A stretch of 21,023 nt of DNA, from the IMG/VR virus record IMGVR_UViG_3300027971_000262, positions 1 to 21,023 of that record; one strand, given 5' to 3'. Of the stretch, positions 1,171 through 17,996 are shown in pieces. Both the position numbers and the translations under genes were made by a program. The DNA is from a virus. Below the pieces are notes generated by a model, which saw only the letters and a list, made by a program, of their open reading frames with translations, ran no database searches and was not told where the DNA came from. Position 1 is the stretch's first letter. Each line of letters opens with the position of its first letter.

Positions 1171-1245
1171 GGACGCGAGGCGGGACTCGAACCCGCGACC
1201 TCCCAACACACTTCGTGGGACTCTTCCAACTGAGTTACTCGCGCC
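1171..1245 (-). tRNA. tRNA-His-like gene (anticodon GTG), with degenerate anticodon arm
   Basis: The minus strand folds as a type I tRNA numbered without insertions. The acceptor GCGCGAG pairs with CTCGCGT and carries an extra G at -1 opposite C73, the bacterial tRNA-His identity signature. T8 and A9 are present. The D arm is ACTC/GAGT around AGTTGGAA, the variable loop AGGTC, and the T arm GCGGG/CCCGC around TTCGAGT. Canonical numbering then places GTG at 34-36, decoding His. The anticodon stem is poor: CCACG against TTGGG gives two pairs and a G-T wobble, and position 33 is A instead of U. A register shift gives four good pairs but a 10-base loop. CCA is not encoded. It may be a decaying phage tRNA or a tRNA mimic. 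Confidence 0.75.
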
Positions 1246-3441: not shown

Positions 3442-4593
3442 TCACTCGCCAACTTGCCTTCTGCCCCTGGATCGGTTGAGAATCGCAGGCTCGGCGAACG
3501 TCTCCGTCCCTCCATCCGCGTGGGGAACGAGGTGGCTTTCGTCGTACCCAGCCTGGGCTACGATCCGCCGGGATCGCTTGAGCTGCTCGATCTTCGGTCC
3601 ACCAAAAGCCTCGCACTTAAAAAGCCACTTGAGCGAGACTTGATCGATGCGAAACAGCATCGGCGTGCCATCCACTTCGATCTCGTATCGCGCCGACCAC
3701 GTTTTCCTGTTTACGTTCGACGCCACGAACCAGCGGACCAACTCCACGAACGCATCAGACGGGCACCCGATGCTCTTGATGTGCAGGTAGGCCGAATACA
3801 TAGCGCGAACGGCCGTCATGTCCCAACGCTTGGCGTCGAAAGACTTCGTTTCTTCGGAAAGCAGGGCGTTCACACTCTCGATCGCTCTGATGAATCCGTC
3901 GCACTTTGATTGCCATTCATCTCGATTTCCATCGAGCCATCCTCGCACCCTCCGCTCGATCTGGTCGCTGATGCTTCGCTCAGACTTTGCGTAGAGCTGA
4001 AGGTCTTTGTGGCGGGTTGCGTACTTGTAGAACAGACCGAGGCTGTGCCTGTGCAACTGGCCGGCCTTCTTGCGGCCGTGCTCGCTTGAGCGACTGATAC
4101 CCGCCATGCCGACCGACAAATCGTCTACTGTCGTCCGGACCATCTGGTACAGCGATCGGCCGGCATCATCAGATTCCAAGTCGCCGCGGTACTTCTCGTA
4201 CGGAATCAGCCCAACCCCGTCGTTAAGGTGCTGAAAGTCCATCCGGGCATCGTCGTGGGTTTCGTACACCATTGACTGCTGGGACACCTGAGCGCCGCGC
4301 AGCGACTCAACCTGCTCCCTGCACAATCCGTACTCGGATGGACCATCGATTGCTCGCATGAGCGTTGTGATTCGTTGCCTTCCATCCTGAAGAAAACTTG
4401 TGTTCCCTCCCTTGAGACGGTAGGTCGTGATTACTCCGAGCACGTGACCGAGCGAAATCGTCCTAGCGAGGAAATGGTTGGCCTTTTTCTGCGTCCACAC
4501 GTACTCGCGCTGGTAGTCGGGATCAGTCAACTCCTTCGACCGATAGTCGTTGACGATGTCCCTGGCGTACCTCGTTGATGGTCCAAGATTCAT
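3442..4593 (-). CDS. DUF262 domain protein with C-terminal HNH-like nuclease motif
   Basis: The ATG at 4593 overlaps the methyltransferase stop as ATGA, giving 383 residues. Residues about 10-80 show the DUF262 (GmrS/ParB-like) pattern: DPDYQREYVW, the helix FLARTISLGHVLGVI, and the signature DGRQRITTL at 70-78, which in this superfamily is the nucleotide-handling motif. A helical middle follows. The C-terminus has ESHLVPHADGGTE (H354) and EPAILNRSRGRR (N373, R), the layout of an HNH/His-Me nuclease. DUF262 plus HNH/DUF1524 is the architecture of GmrSD and SspE restriction enzymes, which cut modified DNA using nucleotides. Here the partner is an adjacent DNA methyltransferase. I infer a restriction or superinfection-exclusion role. 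GC is visibly lower than in neighbours. The domain calls are by eye. Confidence 0.8.
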   Translation of the reverse strand: MNLGPSTRYARDIVNDYRSKELTDPDYQREYVWTQKKANHFLARTISLGHVLGVITTYRLKGGNTSFLQDGRQRITTLMRAIDGPSEYGLCREQVESLRGAQVSQQSMVYETHDDARMDFQHLNDGVGLIPYEKYRGDLESDDAGRSLYQMVRTTVDDLSVGMAGISRSSEHGRKKAGQLHRHSLGLFYKYATRHKDLQLYAKSERSISDQIERRVRGWLDGNRDEWQSKCDGFIRAIESVNALLSEETKSFDAKRWDMTAVRAMYSAYLHIKSIGCPSDAFVELVRWFVASNVNRKTWSARYEIEVDGTPMLFRIDQVSLKWLFKCEAFGGPKIEQLKRSRRIVAQAGYDESHLVPHADGGTETFAEPAILNRSRGRRQVGE

Positions 4594-6029
4594 TGGTTCA
4601 CCTTCGTTCCACTGAGCCTCACGTGTGCCACATCCGAAAACGTCTCGCTCTTCTCGACACCGACGTACTTCCGGCCGTTTCGCACTGATGCAACGCCGGT
4701 GGTTCCGCTTCCGTTGAACGGATCGACGACGAGATCGCCGGGCATGGAAGCACAAAGGACGATCGGCTCGACCAGGGCCAGGGGCAGTTGCGTGGGGAAG
4801 TCTGGGATACGCTCCGCGCAAGTCCCGGTCAGCCTCGGGATCTGCCACACGTCGTCCCAGAGCTTCCCGCCGGCTGAGGCGCGACTGTCGCCGTACTTCG
4901 TCTGGCGATCGCTCGGGCGAGTCACCGGCTCCGGGTTGAAGACGAAAGACTTCTCGTCCTTGACGGCATAGAAGATGTGGCGGCTTGTTCGGTTGAACTT
5001 GTTCTGGCAGTTCACGCCGAAAGTCTCGTACCACTTGATCCACGACCGGAGAGTCAGGCCCCGACGCTTGAGGATCATGGCGTATTCGGCAGCGTACTCG
5101 TCGCCAATCATCACCCACAGCGAACCATCTTCGGTAAGACAATCGCAGCACAGCCCGATCCATTCATCCACCCACCGCAGGTAAGCGCCGTCCGAGAGGC
5201 TGTCGGCATCCTTTCCTGGGCCATAGTCGATGCCGATGTTGTAGGGTGGGTCGGTGAAGATTAGCCGCGCCGGCCCGTGCTCGTCTCGCACGGAAGCTAG
5301 ACCGTCGAGGACATCGACGTTGAGAATCGACCACTCAGGACGGCCGGTTTCATGCTCGACGGCCTTCGCGGCCGCCTCCTCGAGCTCCAGGCGGCGCTTA
5401 CGGCTGCGAATCTCCCGCAGCGCTGCTGCGGGCTTCATTTCAAGTGCCGCGACTTTCTTGGCGAGATCGCTGTGGCTGCATATCTGCTCAGCACGGCCCA
5501 TAGTGCCGGTCGATGCACTGGCTTCGGCAGCGCGCGCCTCGCGTGCGACGTGCTTGCCGCTGTTGTTTAGACGCGGCTCATTGTGATCCGCGTCTAAAGC
5601 CTTTTGCTTGACAGAGGCGCGCCCAACTTTTCCGTCTGAAGCTGCTTGAGATTTTTTCCGATTCGCCTCCTTCTTGATCTCTCCGTGCTTCTTCTCCCAC
5701 TTCTCCGATTCCTTCTGATACCGAATAAAGATCACGCACTTGACCGTCTCGTCCAAGTCGCGCCGCGGGCCGTTCATCGTCCAGGCGTAGTCCCACGGAT
5801 TGCCTCGATACTCTCGAGTGATCGGCTTGAGACCTAGCTCGATGCAGGCGCGGTAGCGATTGCGACCGTCGAGAATCATGCCATCACAAATCGTGATTGG
5901 CTCTTCCTGCCCCTTCTTCTTGATGTCGTCTCGCAGTTGCGCAAACGCCTTGTCTTTCATCATGGGCCAGCCGTCTGCGGCCGGGTGACCCTTAAGCTCC
6001 ACCATCGTTGCTGGCATGCTTCCCTCCAT
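4590..6029 (-). CDS. ParB-like domain fused to beta-class DNA methyltransferase
   Basis: The start at 6029 follows the upstream stop by two bases and has GGGGGAGGG seven bases before it; an internal ATG at 6017 with GGAGGG is an alternative. The 479-residue protein has an N-terminal ParB-like nuclease/CTPase-fold domain (about 8-75: LRDDIKKKGQEEPITICDG, then LDGRNRYRACIELG). A basic helical linker with lysine-rich segments follows (about 95-230). The C-terminal SAM-dependent methyltransferase has catalytic DPPYNIG at about 260 and the SAM-binding DPFNGSGTTG at about 436. Motif IV before motif I defines the beta class, so the product is N6-methyladenine or N4-methylcytosine in DNA. ParB-methyltransferase fusions are known in phages. 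Here it overlaps the DUF262-HNH gene, suggesting it either protects against or works with that nuclease. Confidence 0.92.
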   Translation of the reverse strand: MEGSMPATMVELKGHPAADGWPMMKDKAFAQLRDDIKKKGQEEPITICDGMILDGRNRYRACIELGLKPITREYRGNPWDYAWTMNGPRRDLDETVKCVIFIRYQKESEKWEKKHGEIKKEANRKKSQAASDGKVGRASVKQKALDADHNEPRLNNSGKHVAREARAAEASASTGTMGRAEQICSHSDLAKKVAALEMKPAAALREIRSRKRRLELEEAAAKAVEHETGRPEWSILNVDVLDGLASVRDEHGPARLIFTDPPYNIGIDYGPGKDADSLSDGAYLRWVDEWIGLCCDCLTEDGSLWVMIGDEYAAEYAMILKRRGLTLRSWIKWYETFGVNCQNKFNRTSRHIFYAVKDEKSFVFNPEPVTRPSDRQTKYGDSRASAGGKLWDDVWQIPRLTGTCAERIPDFPTQLPLALVEPIVLCASMPGDLVVDPFNGSGTTGVASVRNGRKYVGVEKSETFSDVAHVRLSGTKVNQ

Positions 6030-6031
6030 AG

Positions 6032-6361
6032 TCACACCCTCCCCCCACACACCACCCGCCACTCCGTCTCGCCCCGCCTGGCGGCCGACTTGACCTCCAG
6101 CCCCGTCCGCTCGACCTTGCCGAGCCGCTCGAGCCGCTTCATGCGGCGGATCACCTGCTGATCGCTCATGGTGCCGATCCGAGCCGCCAGCTCGGTCTTG
6201 CCGGCCGGCCCGGCGGCCAGCGCCGCGAGGATAAGCCGTTCGTGTTCGTCAACCGCGGCGGCCGTCATCGCCTGCCCGGCCGCCACCGATGTCGGCGGAT
6301 CGGTGCGGCGGGCCGGGGCCGCGTCAAAGTCGAGGAAGTGCTGGCCCTGGAAGGTCGTCAT
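6032..6361 (-). CDS. Winged-helix DNA-binding protein (109 aa)
   Basis: The ATG at 6361 overlaps the preceding stop as ATGA and yields MTTFQGQHFLDFDAAPARRT. The N-terminal part contains DPPTSVAAGQA, a motif common in phage proteins that carry a MarR-like winged helix. Residues about 50-100 give the domain: HERLILAALAAG, KTELAARIG, SDQQVIRRMKRLERLGKVE, with a wing around TGLEVKSAARRGETEWRVV. It likely binds DNA and could regulate the methyltransferase/nuclease pair that begins two bases downstream of its stop. That regulatory link is inference from adjacency. Confidence 0.8.
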   Translation of the reverse strand: MTTFQGQHFLDFDAAPARRTDPPTSVAAGQAMTAAAVDEHERLILAALAAGPAGKTELAARIGTMSDQQVIRRMKRLERLGKVERTGLEVKSAARRGETEWRVVCGGRV

Positions 6362-9277: not shown

Positions 9278-9531
9278 CACCGTCCTCCTTCCCTGATCCG
9301 CACCGCCTGGGCGGTGAGCGCCGCCGCCATCACATCGACCTTCGCCGCCGCCTCCTCGCGGGCCGCGGCTTCCGTCTCGTGCCACCGCGGCGAGGAGTCG
9401 GCGGCGTAGAGGTTGCCCGCCACCTCGGCGTACAGCTTGCCGTTCACGTCCACAGCCTCAGCGCTGCTGAGGTGCAGGAAGACGCCGTCGCTTCGGATTT
9501 TTTCAAAGACCGACGCTTGGAAGAGTTTCAT
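9277..9531 (-). CDS. Hypothetical small protein (84 aa)
   Basis: The start at 9531 (MKLFQASVFEKIRSDGVF) overlaps the upstream stop as ATGA and has GGAGGTGATCGGAG before it. It is beta-rich in the first half (FLHLSSAEAVDVNGKLYAEV), then RWHETEAAAREEAAAKVDVMAAAL. The second part resembles phage proteins with a short beta module and a helix that handles modified residues such as TEAAAREAA, but no function is known to me. The much longer upstream reading of this frame is a shadow of the repeat gene. Confidence 0.75.
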   Translation of the reverse strand: MKLFQASVFEKIRSDGVFLHLSSAEAVDVNGKLYAEVAGNLYAADSSPRWHETEAAAREEAAAKVDVMAAALTAQAVRIREGGR

Positions 9532-9980
9532 GCTCCGATCACCTCCCATTTCGGCGTTGTGTTCGCTCGCAGCCATTCGGCCTGCGCGGCCCTGGCTGCG
9601 TCCCAGGCTGCGTCCCTGGCTGCGGCCCCGGCTGCGGCCCAGGCTGCGGCCCTGGCTGCGGCCCAGGCTGCGTCCCAGGCTGCGTCCCCGGCTGCGGCCA
9701 ACTCTTCGTCCGTCGCTTCGCCGTTTGCATACCTTTCGGCCACGCCAAGAGCCGCCAGCGATCGAGCGTCGGTCATCAAGTGCTGCACCTGACGGGCCGA
9801 CCACACCGCAAAAAGCCGCAACTCACGATCAGTAAGGACGCCCGGTCGCCTCGCCACCCAAAGCAGCCAGTCATGCCGTGCCCATCGCCAAACCTCGTCC
9901 ATCGTCTCGCATGTGCTTTCAGCCCACTCGCGGCCTTCGCGGCAAGCGCGGTGCTTATCCATGAACTCTTTGATTGTCAT
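9528..9980 (-). CDS. Phage protein with Ala/Trp-rich tandem repeats (150 aa)
   Basis: The N-terminal 95 residues (MTIKEFMDKHRACREGREWA, VWRWARHDWLLWVARRPGVL, TDRELRLFAVWSARQVQHL) form a family I know from many phages that ends in a variable repeat tract. Here the tract is about 36 residues of AAWDAAWAAARAAA type, encoded by about nine copies of a 12-base unit. Repeat number varies between relatives in this kind of protein, as expected for slippage. The gene overlaps the ATPase stop as ATGA. The function is not established. The C-terminus, EWLRANTTPKWEVIGA, resumes non-repeat sequence. Confidence 0.85.
   Translation of the reverse strand: MTIKEFMDKHRACREGREWAESTCETMDEVWRWARHDWLLWVARRPGVLTDRELRLFAVWSARQVQHLMTDARSLAALGVAERYANGEATDEELAAAGDAAWDAAWAAARAAAWAAAGAAARDAAWDAARAAQAEWLRANTTPKWEVIGA
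9586..9698 (-). repeat. Tandem 12-base repeat, about nine units
   Basis: On the plus strand the unit is gcgKCCCNGGCT (K is G or T), repeated head to tail and differing only at a T/G position and an a/t/c position. It lies in frame in the Ala/Trp-repeat gene and encodes four residues per unit, so changes in copy number keep the frame. Confidence 0.85.
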
Positions 9981-10876
9981 GCCGTCACCTCGATCTCGAT
10001 CTCGCCATGCCGCTGGTCGATCAGGATGTCGAGCTGATCCCGCTGCTCCGCCGTCAGCTTGCCGTCGCTGACGGCCTTCTCGGCGTCGTCGGCGATCCGG
10101 CCCAACTCGTCGACGGTCACCGCCTGGGCGACGCGGTCACGCCAGCCGGGCCGCTTGGCAGGCTCGGCGAAGATCGGACCGAGGCTGTCGATCGTCATGG
10201 GCAGCTCGGCGTCGAGGCCGTACCTGTTCTTCGCGTCCCACGCCGCGGCCCGCTCAAGGTGCAGGAGCCGACGCTTGCCGCCGGTGGCCTTCTTGCGGCC
10301 GTCCGATCCCTCGGTGACGTTTGTCTTGTAGTTGCAGAACGCCAGGAGGTCGCACCACTCCTTGAGCAACGGCGCGGTCTGCTTCGTCAGCTTCAGCTCG
10401 TAGCGGTCGAAGCCGTCCGCCATGTCCGGCGGCGACGTTCGCTGCACCTTGGAATGAGCCACGAAAGCCACGTTGAGCCCGACACCGATCAGCGCGTCGC
10501 ACTGCGTCAGGAACCGGCCGAAGCCTTCGGCAAGGATCGTGTAGCCCTTGCCGAATCCGAAGCCCTCGATCGACTTTTGCTTGTGCTCCACGAGCAGGCT
10601 CTCGATCAGCAGCCGCTCGGCCCAGTCCGCCGAGTCGATGACCACCGTGCGGAACTCGCTGGGCTTGCTGCCGATCTCGGCCACCGCGGCCCGCAGCTCG
10701 TCCCACGAGCCAATCGACACGCGGGCCACGTCGAGGTGGTGCGTCCCCTCTTCCGTGTCAAGGATCACCGGCGACGGGAACGCCGCTGCCAGCGTCGATT
10801 TCCCGATGCCCTCCGTCCCGTAGATCACCGCCCGTACCGGCGTGTGCCGGCGTCCCCGCTGAATGTTCAAAGCCAT
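9977..10876 (-). CDS. Sak4-like RecA-fold ATPase (phage recombinase, AAA_24 type)
   Basis: The 299-residue protein has Walker A GTEGIGKST at residues 20-28 near the N-terminus, an acidic strand VILDTEEGTHHLD (37-49), and Walker B TVVIDSADWAE (77-87). These are followed by GFGKGY and FVAHSKVQ, which match the sensor region of phage RecA-fold ATPases of the Sak4 type. Sak4 proteins promote single-strand annealing and strand exchange with a phage SSB. The position in an early operon with an SSB-like gene supports this. The C-terminal 60 residues (ITVDELGRIADDAEKAV-like helices) resemble a DUF-type tail that binds partners. The start has AGGAG nine bases upstream. Alternative: a generic phage AAA ATPase without recombinase activity. 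Confidence 0.85.
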   Translation of the reverse strand: MALNIQRGRRHTPVRAVIYGTEGIGKSTLAAAFPSPVILDTEEGTHHLDVARVSIGSWDELRAAVAEIGSKPSEFRTVVIDSADWAERLLIESLLVEHKQKSIEGFGFGKGYTILAEGFGRFLTQCDALIGVGLNVAFVAHSKVQRTSPPDMADGFDRYELKLTKQTAPLLKEWCDLLAFCNYKTNVTEGSDGRKKATGGKRRLLHLERAAAWDAKNRYGLDAELPMTIDSLGPIFAEPAKRPGWRDRVAQAVTVDELGRIADDAEKAVSDGKLTAEQRDQLDILIDQRHGEIEIEVTA

Positions 10877-10881
10877 CTCCG

Positions 10882-11388
10882 CTAACTCCTCTTTGCATCC
10901 CAGTCACAGTGCAGCGCCTGGAACCTCTCCTGGCGCTTCCTCATCTCTTCCACCTTCTCAGCCGTCCCCGGCAGAGCCGTCGTCGCCTTCGGCTGCACCA
11001 CCACTTCGATCTCTCGCCCCACCCCTTGCAGCTCGCAGATCGACTCGACGATCGTGTCGAGCAGAATCCGCGGATCGCCGGCCAACGCCGCTTCGACGTA
11101 ACAGTCACCAGCCAGCGATCTGCCGCCCGCTCGCCGCGGATCGGCGTACATATTTCCGGTGTGCGTTAGCCGGGCCAGCACCTTCTTTCTGATCCGCCGC
11201 AGCCAATCCGCCATCCGCGGTTTGACTTCGCTCCTGATCCGCACCCGCTTCGCACCCCGCGTCTCCGGCTTCCGCTGCTTCTTCGCAGCACAGAGCCGCA
11301 CGGCTGGCCTGCGTGATCCAGCCGCAGGCGTCCGCGCCGGCATCCACCGGAACGTCCGCTGAACGTGGATCACGCCTTCGCCTGCCAT
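10882..11388 (-). CDS. Hypothetical basic protein (168 aa)
   Basis: The start at 11388 (MAGEGVIHVQRTFRW) is preferred because GGGAGGG lies five bases upstream. An ATG at 11439 would add 17 Arg-rich residues encoded across a perfect hairpin. The N-terminal half is very basic (KKQRKPETRGAKRVRIR), the middle contains WLRRIRKKVLARL, and the C-terminal part has LLDTIVESICELQGVGREI and a coiled helix EKVEEMRKRQERF. It ends five bases before the recombinase gene start and may be a DNA-binding accessory of it. No family recognised. Confidence 0.7.
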   Translation of the reverse strand: MAGEGVIHVQRTFRWMPARTPAAGSRRPAVRLCAAKKQRKPETRGAKRVRIRSEVKPRMADWLRRIRKKVLARLTHTGNMYADPRRAGGRSLAGDCYVEAALAGDPRILLDTIVESICELQGVGREIEVVVQPKATTALPGTAEKVEEMRKRQERFQALHCDWDAKRS

Positions 11389-11403
11389 GCGGCCCTCCCT
11401 GAT

Positions 11404-11428
11404 CCGCCGGCGGTTCCACCGCCGGCGG
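11404..11428. repeat. Perfect GC-only hairpin
   Basis: Arms CCGCCGGCGG (11404-11413 and 11419-11428) are self-complementary around the five-base loop ttcca. There is no following T run on either strand. It lies 16 bases upstream of the chosen start of the basic protein and would fold in its 5' region, possibly limiting translation or pausing RNA polymerase. Confidence 0.7.
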
Positions 11429-11492
11429 GCCTCATCCATGACCACCCGCTCCGCGGGCTCCCTGCCGAAGGCTTCGTGCCCCGGCCCGTCCT

Positions 11493-11720
11493 TCACTCGA
11501 TCTCGATGTCCGAAGGCGAGACGGTCACGAACACCTCGTCGTCGATCTCCACGATCACCCGAAACTGATCCGAGTGGCAGCACGTGCCGGACCAACGCTT
11601 GCCGGCCGTCGTGCCGCGAATCGCTTCGCCACGCTCCGGCAGCCGCCGGCCGTAGAGATCGATCATCCCGGCGATCGCCCCAGCCGCTTCTCGATCACCG
11701 ACCATCGTTTCGCTCGCCAT
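11493..11720 (-). CDS. Hypothetical protein (75 aa)
   Basis: The start MASETMVGDREAAGAIAG has AGGAG upstream and overlaps the end of csrA by 26 bases. The sequence contains GKRWSGTCCHSDQFRVIVEI and ends VFVTVSPSDIEIE. The second half is beta-rich. Function unknown. It is followed by about 100 bases that hold a hairpin before the next gene. Confidence 0.7.
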   Translation of the reverse strand: MASETMVGDREAAGAIAGMIDLYGRRLPERGEAIRGTTAGKRWSGTCCHSDQFRVIVEIDDEVFVTVSPSDIEIE

Positions 11721-11910
11721 GTCCCGTCTCCTGTTGCTCGAGCCGCTTGAACAGCTCGGTCCTGTAAATCGCTTGGTCGTGGTTCGCCACGACCTCCAAT
11801 CTCACGCGGTCGCCTCTGATGCTGTGGACAACGACCACAACGTCATCTGATGGACGATCACCGGGCACGGTGATGGATTGGCCTTCTCTTCGATCAAGCC
11901 GGAGCGGCAT
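11695..11910 (-). CDS. csrA: CsrA-family RNA-binding translational regulator
   Basis: From the ATG at 11910 (GAAGGA six bases upstream) the 71-residue protein reads MPLRLDRREGQSITV, then DDVVVVVHSIRGDRVRLEVV, then QAIYRTELFKRL. This aligns with the CsrA/RsmA core: strand 1 with the LxRREG motif (R7-R8), the middle strands ending in RGDRVRLxV, and the C-terminal YR (R50) matching the RNA-contacting Arg44 of E. coli CsrA, followed by the helix start ELFKRL. About five extra residues lie between strand 1 and DDVVV. CsrA dimers bind GGA in mRNA leader hairpins and control translation. Here it is the second gene of the leftward operon and would be positioned to control phage or host messages. The start lies within the upstream gene's 3' end. 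Confidence 0.85.
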   Translation of the reverse strand: MPLRLDRREGQSITVPGDRPSDDVVVVVHSIRGDRVRLEVVANHDQAIYRTELFKRLEQQETGHGERNDGR

Positions 11911-12257
11911 TCCTGTTCCTTCGCCTTTTTGGTGGACTTCCACCGCTGATGGACTTCCTGTCTCTGACGCTGCCGGTACTCGACCGTCTTGCTGCTCGGA
12001 CGAGCCGTGCAGCCGAACTGTGCGAGCTGCCTCTGCTCTTCCGTCCAGCCGGCCTGCACTTCCTTCGCCCGCTTCTTAATCACGCTGCTGATCGGGTCGT
12101 GTGGCGTCGGAAGGCCGGTCCGCACCGACCACTCGTGCCACACCCGATCAACCGAATCCCGCACCACCCAAGCCGTCGTTTTCACGCTCAAACCGATCCC
12201 GAAGCAGATGTCGATCAGGTCTTGATCGAGCCTCCCGTTCCCGCCGTGCGTTTCCAT
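11802..12257 (-). CDS. Hypothetical first gene of the leftward operon (151 aa)
   Basis: The start METHGGNGRLDQDLIDICF is preceded by AGGGGATTCA. The first 75 residues, with IGLSVKTTAWVVRDSVDRVWHEW, RTGLPTPHDPISSVIKKRAK and VQAGWTEEQRQ, look like a compact helical domain that is plausibly conserved. The last 36 codons lie on top of the 5' half of csrA in another frame and read as less structured (NPSPCPVIVHQMTLW), so the natural end may differ, for example through a frameshift in this copy. Nothing in it is diagnostic of a function. As operon leader with csrA it may be regulatory. Confidence 0.75.
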   Translation of the reverse strand: METHGGNGRLDQDLIDICFGIGLSVKTTAWVVRDSVDRVWHEWSVRTGLPTPHDPISSVIKKRAKEVQAGWTEEQRQLAQFGCTARPSSKTVEYRQRQRQEVHQRWKSTKKAKEQECRSGLIEEKANPSPCPVIVHQMTLWSLSTASEATA

Positions 12258-12440
12258 TGAATCCCCTAACGCTGTACACCCGTTCACTTAGATGAATCGA
12301 TCCTACCGACGTTTGCAGTTGGGTCACCCCCATAGAAACGCGGGAGAAACGGGCGTCCTTGCCAAGGTGTCCAGTAGTGTTCTTCGACGAACACTGTCTC
12401 CACCAAAAACGTCCTGGGGGTTTCAATCCCCGGACGCATG
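12258..12440 (-). promoter_or_regulatory. GGA-rich 5' leader of the leftward operon
   Basis: Between the predicted transcription start near 12440 and the first ATG lie about 183 bases. The minus strand carries seven GGA triplets, several in contexts such as CCAGGACG, AAGGACG and TAGGATCG. Near the 5' end a hairpin GTCC/GGAC plus GGGG/CCCC (12411-12435, one-base bulge, eight-base loop) can form. GGA is the core of CsrA sites, and csrA is the second gene of this transcript, so autoregulation is plausible but inferred. Confidence 0.4.
12377..12394. promoter_or_regulatory. Operator-like imperfect palindrome, copy 1
   Basis: GTGTTCTTCGACGAACAC is symmetric except for one base pair and is followed by TGTC. 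It shares a 20-base block with copy 2 at 12454, their starts 77 bases apart. Its flanks give only a weak promoter (GAGACA and TACTGG on the minus strand). It lies within the leader transcribed from the copy 2 promoter, so a protein bound here could block elongation. Confidence 0.6.
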
Positions 12441-12526: not shown

Positions 12527-12763
12527 CTACTTGCGGCGATTCCGCCGAGGCGCTGGATCGGATTTTCTTTCAGCCCCAAGGCTCCGCGGAAGAGATCCGC
12601 GGAGGGATGCCGCCGCCTTGGCGGAAACCAGCCATTCACGGCCGATCTTCTTGCAGTCGATCGCCCCGGCTCGGCACAGCCGGGCGATGTGTGTCGGCGT
12701 GCAGCCGGCCAACGCTGCGGCCTCGAGCGTCGTCACGATGTCGTTGATGTCGATCGTTGCCAC
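12527..12763 (-). CDS. Excisionase-like helix-turn-helix protein (78 aa)
   Basis: The start is GTG at 12763, chosen because GGAGGT precedes it by six bases. Upstream ATG codons at 12913 and 12850 have no such site and would pull the start into the operator region. The protein reads VATIDINDIVTTLEAAALAG, then THIARLCRAGAIDCKKIGREW, then VSAKAAASLRGSLPR. This is the helix-turn-helix 17/MerR-like layout of phage excisionases: an AAALAG recognition-helix segment, RAGAI wing and REWLVSAKA. It is divergent from the integrase with a 218-base gap. The C-terminus is basic (APRRNRRK). A transcriptional regulator of similar fold is the alternative. Confidence 0.75.
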   Translation of the reverse strand: MATIDINDIVTTLEAAALAGCTPTHIARLCRAGAIDCKKIGREWLVSAKAAASLRGSLPRSLGAERKSDPAPRRNRRK

Positions 12764-12839
12764 GCCGCACCTCCGCCGCGCATCAGCTTTCGCCTCTGCG
12801 TACTGTTCACTGCCGACCGATAGTTCAACGGAGAGGGCG

Positions 12840-12884
12840 GGATTGTACATCCGTCTAGTACTGACCAAGCGTACAGTACAATCC
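12840..12884. promoter_or_regulatory. Inverted repeat with divergent TACAAT -10-like boxes between xis-like gene and integrase
   Basis: GGATTGTAC (12840-12848) is repeated exactly inverted as GTACAATCC (12876-12884), with 27 bases between. Each arm contains TACAAT reading outward: leftward towards the excisionase-like gene and rightward towards the integrase. TACAAT is one base from the consensus -10. A smaller inverted pair, GTACTG/CAGTAC, lies between. No convincing -35 boxes were found. The rest of 12764-12981 shows no gene I can support. Confidence 0.5.
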
Positions 12885-12981
12885 TTCTTGCACCTTCGGT
12901 CGGCGCAGGACACGGGAGGTAGGACGCCGAGCCTACTGACCGACGCGCACGGATGCGAGGGCGTTTAGCGGAGCCTTTGCC

Positions 12982-13887
12982 TTGAAACTTACGGAAGCAC
13001 TGAGCCGGTACGTGGTGATCCAAGACCTGTCGGCACGGTCGGAAGTTCTCTACCGGCACTCGATCGCAAAGTTTGCCGAGCACCTCGGCCACGAGCCGAC
13101 GGCCGACGATCTCACCAGCATGCGTGTTGCCGAGTTCCTTCGGTGGCGGGCCACCAACACCCGAGCCGGCAAGCCGATCTCGCCCGACAGCGTAAGCAAG
13201 GATCGGTCGCAGATCCTTGCCCTCTGGCGTTGGATGCGTGAAGAGGATTTGACCGTCGGCAAGATGCCGAGACTGAAGCGTCGGCCGAAGATCGCACGGA
13301 CGCCGCGGGCGTACACGTCGAACGACATCGCCCGGCTGATCGTGCAAGCTCGCAAGCGCCGCGGCCGCACCGGCGGCCTGCCGTCGGCCTGGTGGTGGTC
13401 GTCGATCTTGTACGCGCAGTGGTGCTGCGGTGCCCGCATCGGCGAGTTGATGCAGCTCCGGTGGCGGAACGTCGATCTCGTCGCCGGTCGCGTGCTCTTC
13501 GAGGCTGACACGCGGAAGGGCAGGCGGGCCGACATCTCCCACGCCTTGCCGGCCGATCTATGCCGGCAGCTCGAGGAGCAACGCGGCGGCCCCGACGATC
13601 TCGTCTGGCCGTGGGACCGTAATCCCACCAGCATCTACCCGTCGTTACGAGTCCTCTGCCGGACTGCCGGCGTCGCCTACCTTCCGTTCCATGCGGTCCG
13701 GAAGTCCTCGGCGTCGTACGTTCACGCTGGGGGCGGGGACGCCACGGCCCACCTGGGGCACCACAGCACCGAGATGACGCGGACGCACTACCTCGCCCCG
13801 GCGATCACCCAGACCCGCTCGGCCCTCGACTACCTCCCCACCCTCGATCTCGGCGAGGAGGCCGAGTTCGTGCCGGACGCGGAATAG
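12982..13887 (+). CDS. int: Tyrosine recombinase / phage integrase
   Basis: The 301-residue protein begins at a TTG (GGAG about ten bases upstream) as MKLTEALSRYVVIQ. An N-terminal SAM-like core-binding domain covers about 1-95 (SARSEVLYRHSIAKFAEHLG, RSQILALWRWMREE). The catalytic domain carries the full set: R152 in CGARIGELMQL, K179 in DTRKGR, H237xxR240 in FHAVRKSSAS, H260 in LGHHS, and nucleophile Y270 in TRTHYLAP. It should integrate the phage and, with the excisionase, excise it. The divergent arrangement with the HTH gene is typical. An attachment site is expected nearby, but no core sequence can be identified without the host junction. A TTG start suggests low expression. Confidence 0.95.
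   Translation: MKLTEALSRYVVIQDLSARSEVLYRHSIAKFAEHLGHEPTADDLTSMRVAEFLRWRATNTRAGKPISPDSVSKDRSQILALWRWMREEDLTVGKMPRLKRRPKIARTPRAYTSNDIARLIVQARKRRGRTGGLPSAWWWSSILYAQWCCGARIGELMQLRWRNVDLVAGRVLFEADTRKGRRADISHALPADLCRQLEEQRGGPDDLVWPWDRNPTSIYPSLRVLCRTAGVAYLPFHAVRKSSASYVHAGGGDATAHLGHHSTEMTRTHYLAPAITQTRSALDYLPTLDLGEEAEFVPDAE

Positions 13888-15422: not shown

Positions 15423-17996
<2,574 letters not shown>

Follow-up and report, generated by a model that had tools for sequence, protein, structure and literature searches.

CsrA proteins are global regulators, and E. coli CsrA regulates itself through GGA sites. The family (Pfam PF02599) includes E. coli CsrA, RsmA of P. aeruginosa (1vpz) and RsmE of P. 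fluorescens (2jpp), and its RNA partners, among them the CsrB, RsmY and RsmZ sponges and leaders of the csrA and hcnA type, carry ANGGAN hairpins in tandem, together with a GGA within the Shine-Dalgarno (SD) sequence. The ANGGAN hexaloop is a high-affinity ligand of CsrA/RsmE (PMC4005645). That csrA genes also occur in phages is already published (PMC7366521, PMC9144972): the gene was reported in 30 of 2517 phages, where its purpose was recorded as unknown and loss-of-function tests were called for (PMC7366521), and the CsrA of Burkholderia phage JC1, gp47, is perhaps virion-associated (PMC9144972). A csrA-like gene is likewise carried by another kind of mobile element, the Legionella integrative conjugative elements that encode CsrT, which as cited in PMC7366521 is set apart by its description from the locus reported here, in both element and neighbourhood.

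The csrA gene described here lies at 11695..11910 on the minus strand of the window, a linear IMG/VR virus record (21,023 nucleotides), and encodes a 71-residue protein of the CsrA family that is predicted to bind RNA. An earlier note had read the product as CsrA-like, with equivalents of the RNA-contact arginines at R7 and R50 and about five inserted residues before DDVVV, and each of these points was borne out. Against Pfam PF02599, residues 3-58 score 41.5 bits (E 1.3e-10), above the cut-off of 27 that 12/12 relatives tested also exceed, and PHROG 9500, annotated as a CsrA-like regulator, matches with an E value of 2.5e-7. In common with CsrA, RsmA and RsmE, the protein has the domain and the equivalents of E. 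coli L4, R6, R7 and R44, here L5, R7, R8 and R50. It differs from them in a five-residue insertion in the beta2-beta3 loop, placed directly before DDVVV by alignment with solved CsrAs, in R4 in beta1, in Y49 for H43, and in its linkage to sak4 in a phage. It also misses the NCBIfam equivalog cut-offs NF002469 (35.5 vs 73 bits) and TIGR00202 (26.4 vs 70.1 bits) and, scoring so far under them, is a CsrA-family paralogue that we do not file as an orthologous CsrA. The AlphaFold monomer is modest (pLDDT 70, pTM 0.46), and in a Foldseek search of the PDB with this modest model the best 11 matches were all CsrA chains, with probabilities of 0.96-1.00 but E values of 0.03-0.11.

Homologues with 68-100% identity occur on 19 other IMG/VR viral contigs. 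Within this window clade L5, R7 and R50 are invariant, as are the stretches L3-T14 and R50-L53, and purifying selection acts on csrA in the clade, with a pN/pS over 16 distinct csrA sequences of 0.29 (domain 0.23-0.24, tail 0.75). The number of contigs with homologues, the invariance of R7 and R50 and the pN/pS value together show that the open reading frame (ORF) is not a chance match. The published phage CsrA/RsmM proteins, from Pseudomonas phi297 and its relatives, Vibrio VvAW1 and Burkholderia JC1, belong to different phage groups and reach about 36% identity to the window CsrA at best, although in the cultivated phages phi297 and VvAW1 csrA likewise sits among early recombination genes.

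The placement of csrA in a leftward operon of a temperate phage, also proposed earlier, agrees with the gene order. An excisionase-like HTH protein (12527..12913, minus strand) heads the leftward cluster, next to a tyrosine integrase on the opposite strand (12982..13887, plus strand) that marks the phage as temperate; both were assigned by Pfam and PHROG. There follow, all on the minus strand, the conserved ORF V (11802..12287), csrA itself, ORF U (11493..11720), whose conserved 75-residue product has a pN/pS of 0.41, and gene T (10882..11388), the first gene after a hairpin leader, whose start was re-assigned to the ATG at 11388 (MAGEGVIHVQRTFRW...). Next comes sak4 (9977..10876), a conserved downstream partner of csrA that encodes a Sak4-like single-strand annealing protein (AAA_24; Pfam, PHROG). 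The order int (opposite strand) / xis - V - csrA - U - T - sak4 is conserved in relatives extending far enough, with the xis match missing from some of them.

In all 20 contigs the csrA start lies within the terminal part of V, where the two genes overlap in the +1 frame by 109-115 nt; csrA and U share a further 26 nt, at the end of the former and the beginning of the latter. Within the V/csrA overlap, pN/pS is 0.24 in the csrA frame and about 1.0 in the V frame, compared with 0.21 for V upstream of the overlap. Constraint there falls on the csrA frame alone, which makes csrA the real coding frame in the overlap, and the tail of V was rejected as a constrained overlapping gene. Because the csrA start lies within V in every contig, it is probably reached by translational coupling to V.

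Elsewhere in the window, ARAGORN calls a tRNA-Thr(AGT) at 1171-1244 (minus strand) that Rfam does not report at the gathering threshold; given this and its degenerate-looking anticodon arm, it may represent what is left of a tRNA or of an attachment site. Among the relatives, a tRNA gene at L200:100-173 (59 bits) lies about 1.2 kb upstream of a csrA-sak4 unit, and L136, L139 and L146 have weaker tRNA-like matches. At 3442-6062 (minus strand) of the window, a ParB/N6-N4 DNA methyltransferase fusion is immediately followed by a GmrSD-N (DUF262-like) protein, and the two possibly form a phage-borne modification-dependent or anti-defence pair. Further DNA methyltransferase genes, of a different type, are found in the same phage group, at 16562-17656 of the window and at L129:7395-8636, some of them joined to ParB-like domains or adjacent to them. 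A clade-conserved product at 15423-16565 (minus strand) has the papain-like motifs GDCVSWGW ... SWAHCM ... LNSWG with no Pfam or PHROG match, and at 9528-9804 (minus strand) Ala/Arg-rich repeats are open in two overlapping frames, AAWDAAWAAARAA and RSLGRSLGRSQGR.

The association of csrA with sak4 extends well beyond the window clade. With Sak4 as query 80 viral loci were fetched, and the linkage counts use 71 of them, numbered L057-L127, one of which (L059) is the window-clade contig also numbered L018. CsrA lies upstream of sak4 on the same strand in 39/71 loci, at gaps of -65 to 817 nt that include several 4-nt overlaps, and a more sensitive CsrA profile added five further loci, bringing the count to 44/71. 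In the reverse search, close CsrA queries recovered 18 loci at 44-100% identity to the query, and every one of these has Sak4 187-218 nt past the csrA start; weaker CsrA matches, mostly on large contigs, were without that arrangement and probably represent other phages or host DNA. Diversity among the Sak4-linked CsrAs is high and extends to the length of the beta2-beta3 loop, but the R44 equivalent is present in 38/38 and the R6 equivalent in 35/38. A CsrA tree, for which few columns were available, joins the window clade to L061 (99/93) but does not resolve the deeper order, and no single origin emerges from it for the Sak4-linked CsrAs.

In relatives of the window phage, ANGGAN hexaloop hairpins lie by the csrA start codon, the arrangement expected of a Csr-regulated leader. 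In counts that treat related loci as separate, and whose p-values are for that reason overstated, such hairpins were found in 9 of 25 csrA leaders of the Sak4-linked group vs 0.17 expected by shuffling, and ANGGAN accounts for 20/51 hexaloop hairpins at most 130 nt upstream of csrA vs 15/2672 elsewhere on the strand, and 0/59 on the opposite strand. Leaders have up to four ANGGAN sites, evenly spaced, and several have four at similar spacing; sites are missing from some csrA leaders. Across an alignment of 11 leaders, two helices are 93% paired vs 19-46% when slid, and 17 doubly changed cells were counted vs 4.7 in shuffles; the loops are invariant and the stems covary. The first two ANGGAN sites of several relatives overlap the end of the upstream ORF at Gly-Asp-Gly codons, so that coding may account for part of the pattern. 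These arrays share tandem ANGGAN hairpins and an SD GGA with the CsrB/RsmY/RsmZ sponges and the csrA/hcnA-type leaders; unlike those, they form the leader of a phage csrA-sak4 operon and have no Rfam match, the eight relatives searched yielding tRNAs only and no Csr/Rsm RNA. Among the cultivated csrA phages, phi297 and Vibrio 431E45.1 showed no GGA-loop array ahead of csrA, and VvAW1 has one weak GGA-loop hairpin there. At L061:5900-6000, just before sak4, an ANGGAN hexaloop hairpin with a 10-bp stem is followed by a T run; this terminator-like element could possibly reflect CsrA-controlled attenuation.

The hairpin array of the window clade is placed between csrA and sak4, not ahead of csrA. 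A covariance model, R1, trained on csrA leaders of other phages and containing no window-clade sequence, finds its best place in the window in the U-T intergenic leader at 11386..11477 (minus strand), aligned to model positions 1-110 of 110, though the match is weak (17.1 bits, E 0.015 in a 523-kb search). This leader contains the hairpin GCCCGC-GGA-GCGGGT (11444..11458, minus strand), with a compensatory C-G to A-U change in L017 and L019, and an 11-bp hairpin, CCGCCGGCGGT-GGA-ACCGCCGGCGG (11404..11428, minus strand), with a C-G to U-A change in L020 and a GGA triloop that reads UGGAA if the U-A pair opens. Compensatory changes in the clade are few (2 pairs, 3 cells). One further GGA lies in the SD region of T, 3' of the leader hairpins, and GGA loops make up 20/22 of the T-leader hairpins of the clade vs 59/1034 elsewhere. 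No ANGGAN hexaloop was found at the csrA or T start of the window, where the T leader consists of GGA triloops and the SD GGA; a nucleotide search of the leader in phages gave no match, and no Rfam family, the Csr/Rsm RNAs included, reached its gathering threshold anywhere in the window.

GGA hairpins also precede sak4 or T in relatives that lack csrA (L058, L075/076/080, L089/090/103/105/109/110 and L096). GGA loops account for 31/47 leader hairpins of csrA-less phages vs 273/3589 elsewhere, and R1 picks positions directly ahead of sak4 in these phages; two AT-richer csrA-less groups have no GGA leader hairpins. With many csrA-less phages retaining the hairpins, the proposition that CsrA is present if and only if hairpins are present was rejected. 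One csrA-less sister phage (L058:4300-5390) has V extended over the csrA start site and retains a three-hairpin GGA leader before T. As the hairpins are retained without csrA, the phage CsrA is not their sole possible reader, and the leader is more constant than csrA, which most lineages but not all of them have.

On balance, these patterns incline us to think that the recombination operon is translationally repressed by CsrA through the leader hairpins and the SD GGA, much as at classical Csr targets. The window gene product would be a divergent, dimeric translational regulator of the CsrA type, its main target the phage's own early recombination operon. Bound to the GGA-loop hairpins and the GGA of the ribosome-binding site in the operon leader, CsrA would hold back translation of the first operon gene: csrA-sak4 in most relatives and, in the window clade, T followed by sak4, where the effect on sak4 would pass through coupling to T. 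What the sequences establish is the family, the conserved contact residues, selection on csrA, its conserved neighbourhood and, in relatives, GGA-hairpin leaders with covarying stems; we infer RNA binding, repression rather than activation, the coupling of T to sak4 and the physiological purpose. The physiological outcome would be a feedback limiting recombinase production, with the CsrA of either phage or host as reader, and titration of CsrA, perhaps through Csr RNAs of the host, would relieve it; phages without csrA would depend on host CsrA. Against this reading count the triloop form of the window's own hairpins and its weak R1 match, the GGA hairpins kept by csrA-less relatives, the possible share of coding in some ANGGAN sites, the relatedness of the loci counted, the csrA leaders that have no sites and the modest fold model.

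The earlier note had envisaged a regulator that reprograms host messages. Were the phage CsrA to act mainly on host mRNAs, supplementing or competing with host CsrA, it would change metabolism, motility or defence, which would suit the global role of CsrA proteins and the conservation of RNA-contact residues in phage CsrAs. The Burkholderia phage CsrA may, in addition, be packaged in the virion, as one peptide suggests (PMC9144972). We nevertheless consider this reading unlikely, for the detectable CsrA-type sites cluster at the phages' own csrA/sak4 leaders, and scans of genome contigs with the CsrA and Sak4 alignments found no relative and pointed to neither a host nor host targets. What stands of the earlier interpretation is a phage CsrA-family protein with its arginines and insertion; reprogramming of host messages is unsupported, the CsrA-type GGA hairpins pointing instead to the phage's own recombination operon.

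We give still less credence to the view that the hairpins are SD mimics, ribosome standby or processing sites, or terminators rather than CsrA sites, with csrA a passenger beside sak4. The occurrence of hairpins in csrA-less phages, the terminator-like L061 hairpin and the fact that GGA belongs to the SD sequence would all fit; the loops, however, conform to A-N-GGA-N and not to plain GGAG, csrA is under purifying selection, and csrA holds its position beside sak4 across very divergent copies. Least probable, in our judgement, is that the leader is an early-transcribed sponge titrating host CsrA in the manner of CsrB/RsmZ, with the phage CsrA resetting the balance. The series of as many as four ANGGAN sites at regular intervals in relatives and the persistence of hairpins in csrA-less phages speak for it, but the arrays sit right against start codons and ribosome-binding sites, the position of a regulated 5' leader, there was no sign of a separate sRNA, and Rfam Csr/Rsm RNAs go unmatched in the eight relatives and the window.

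The chances seem to us evenly balanced that these loci constitute an undescribed phage module: a Sak4 operon controlled by a leader RNA of its own with GGA hairpins, joined in most lineages by an operon-borne CsrA. Such a module would form a post-transcriptional, repressor-independent circuit that times phage recombination or lysogeny, and some phages would use the CsrA of their host instead. No paper joining Sak4 and CsrA was found in the literature searched, nor was the csrA-sak4 and GGA-leader context. The csrA-sak4 neighbourhood and its covarying GGA leaders are the first concrete, testable target of a phage CsrA found in this survey. Collectively, the data suggest that phage CsrA controls the phage's own recombination genes rather than the host at large, and that phages may set recombinase output through translational control by CsrA, with CsrA serving as a sensor of host physiology.
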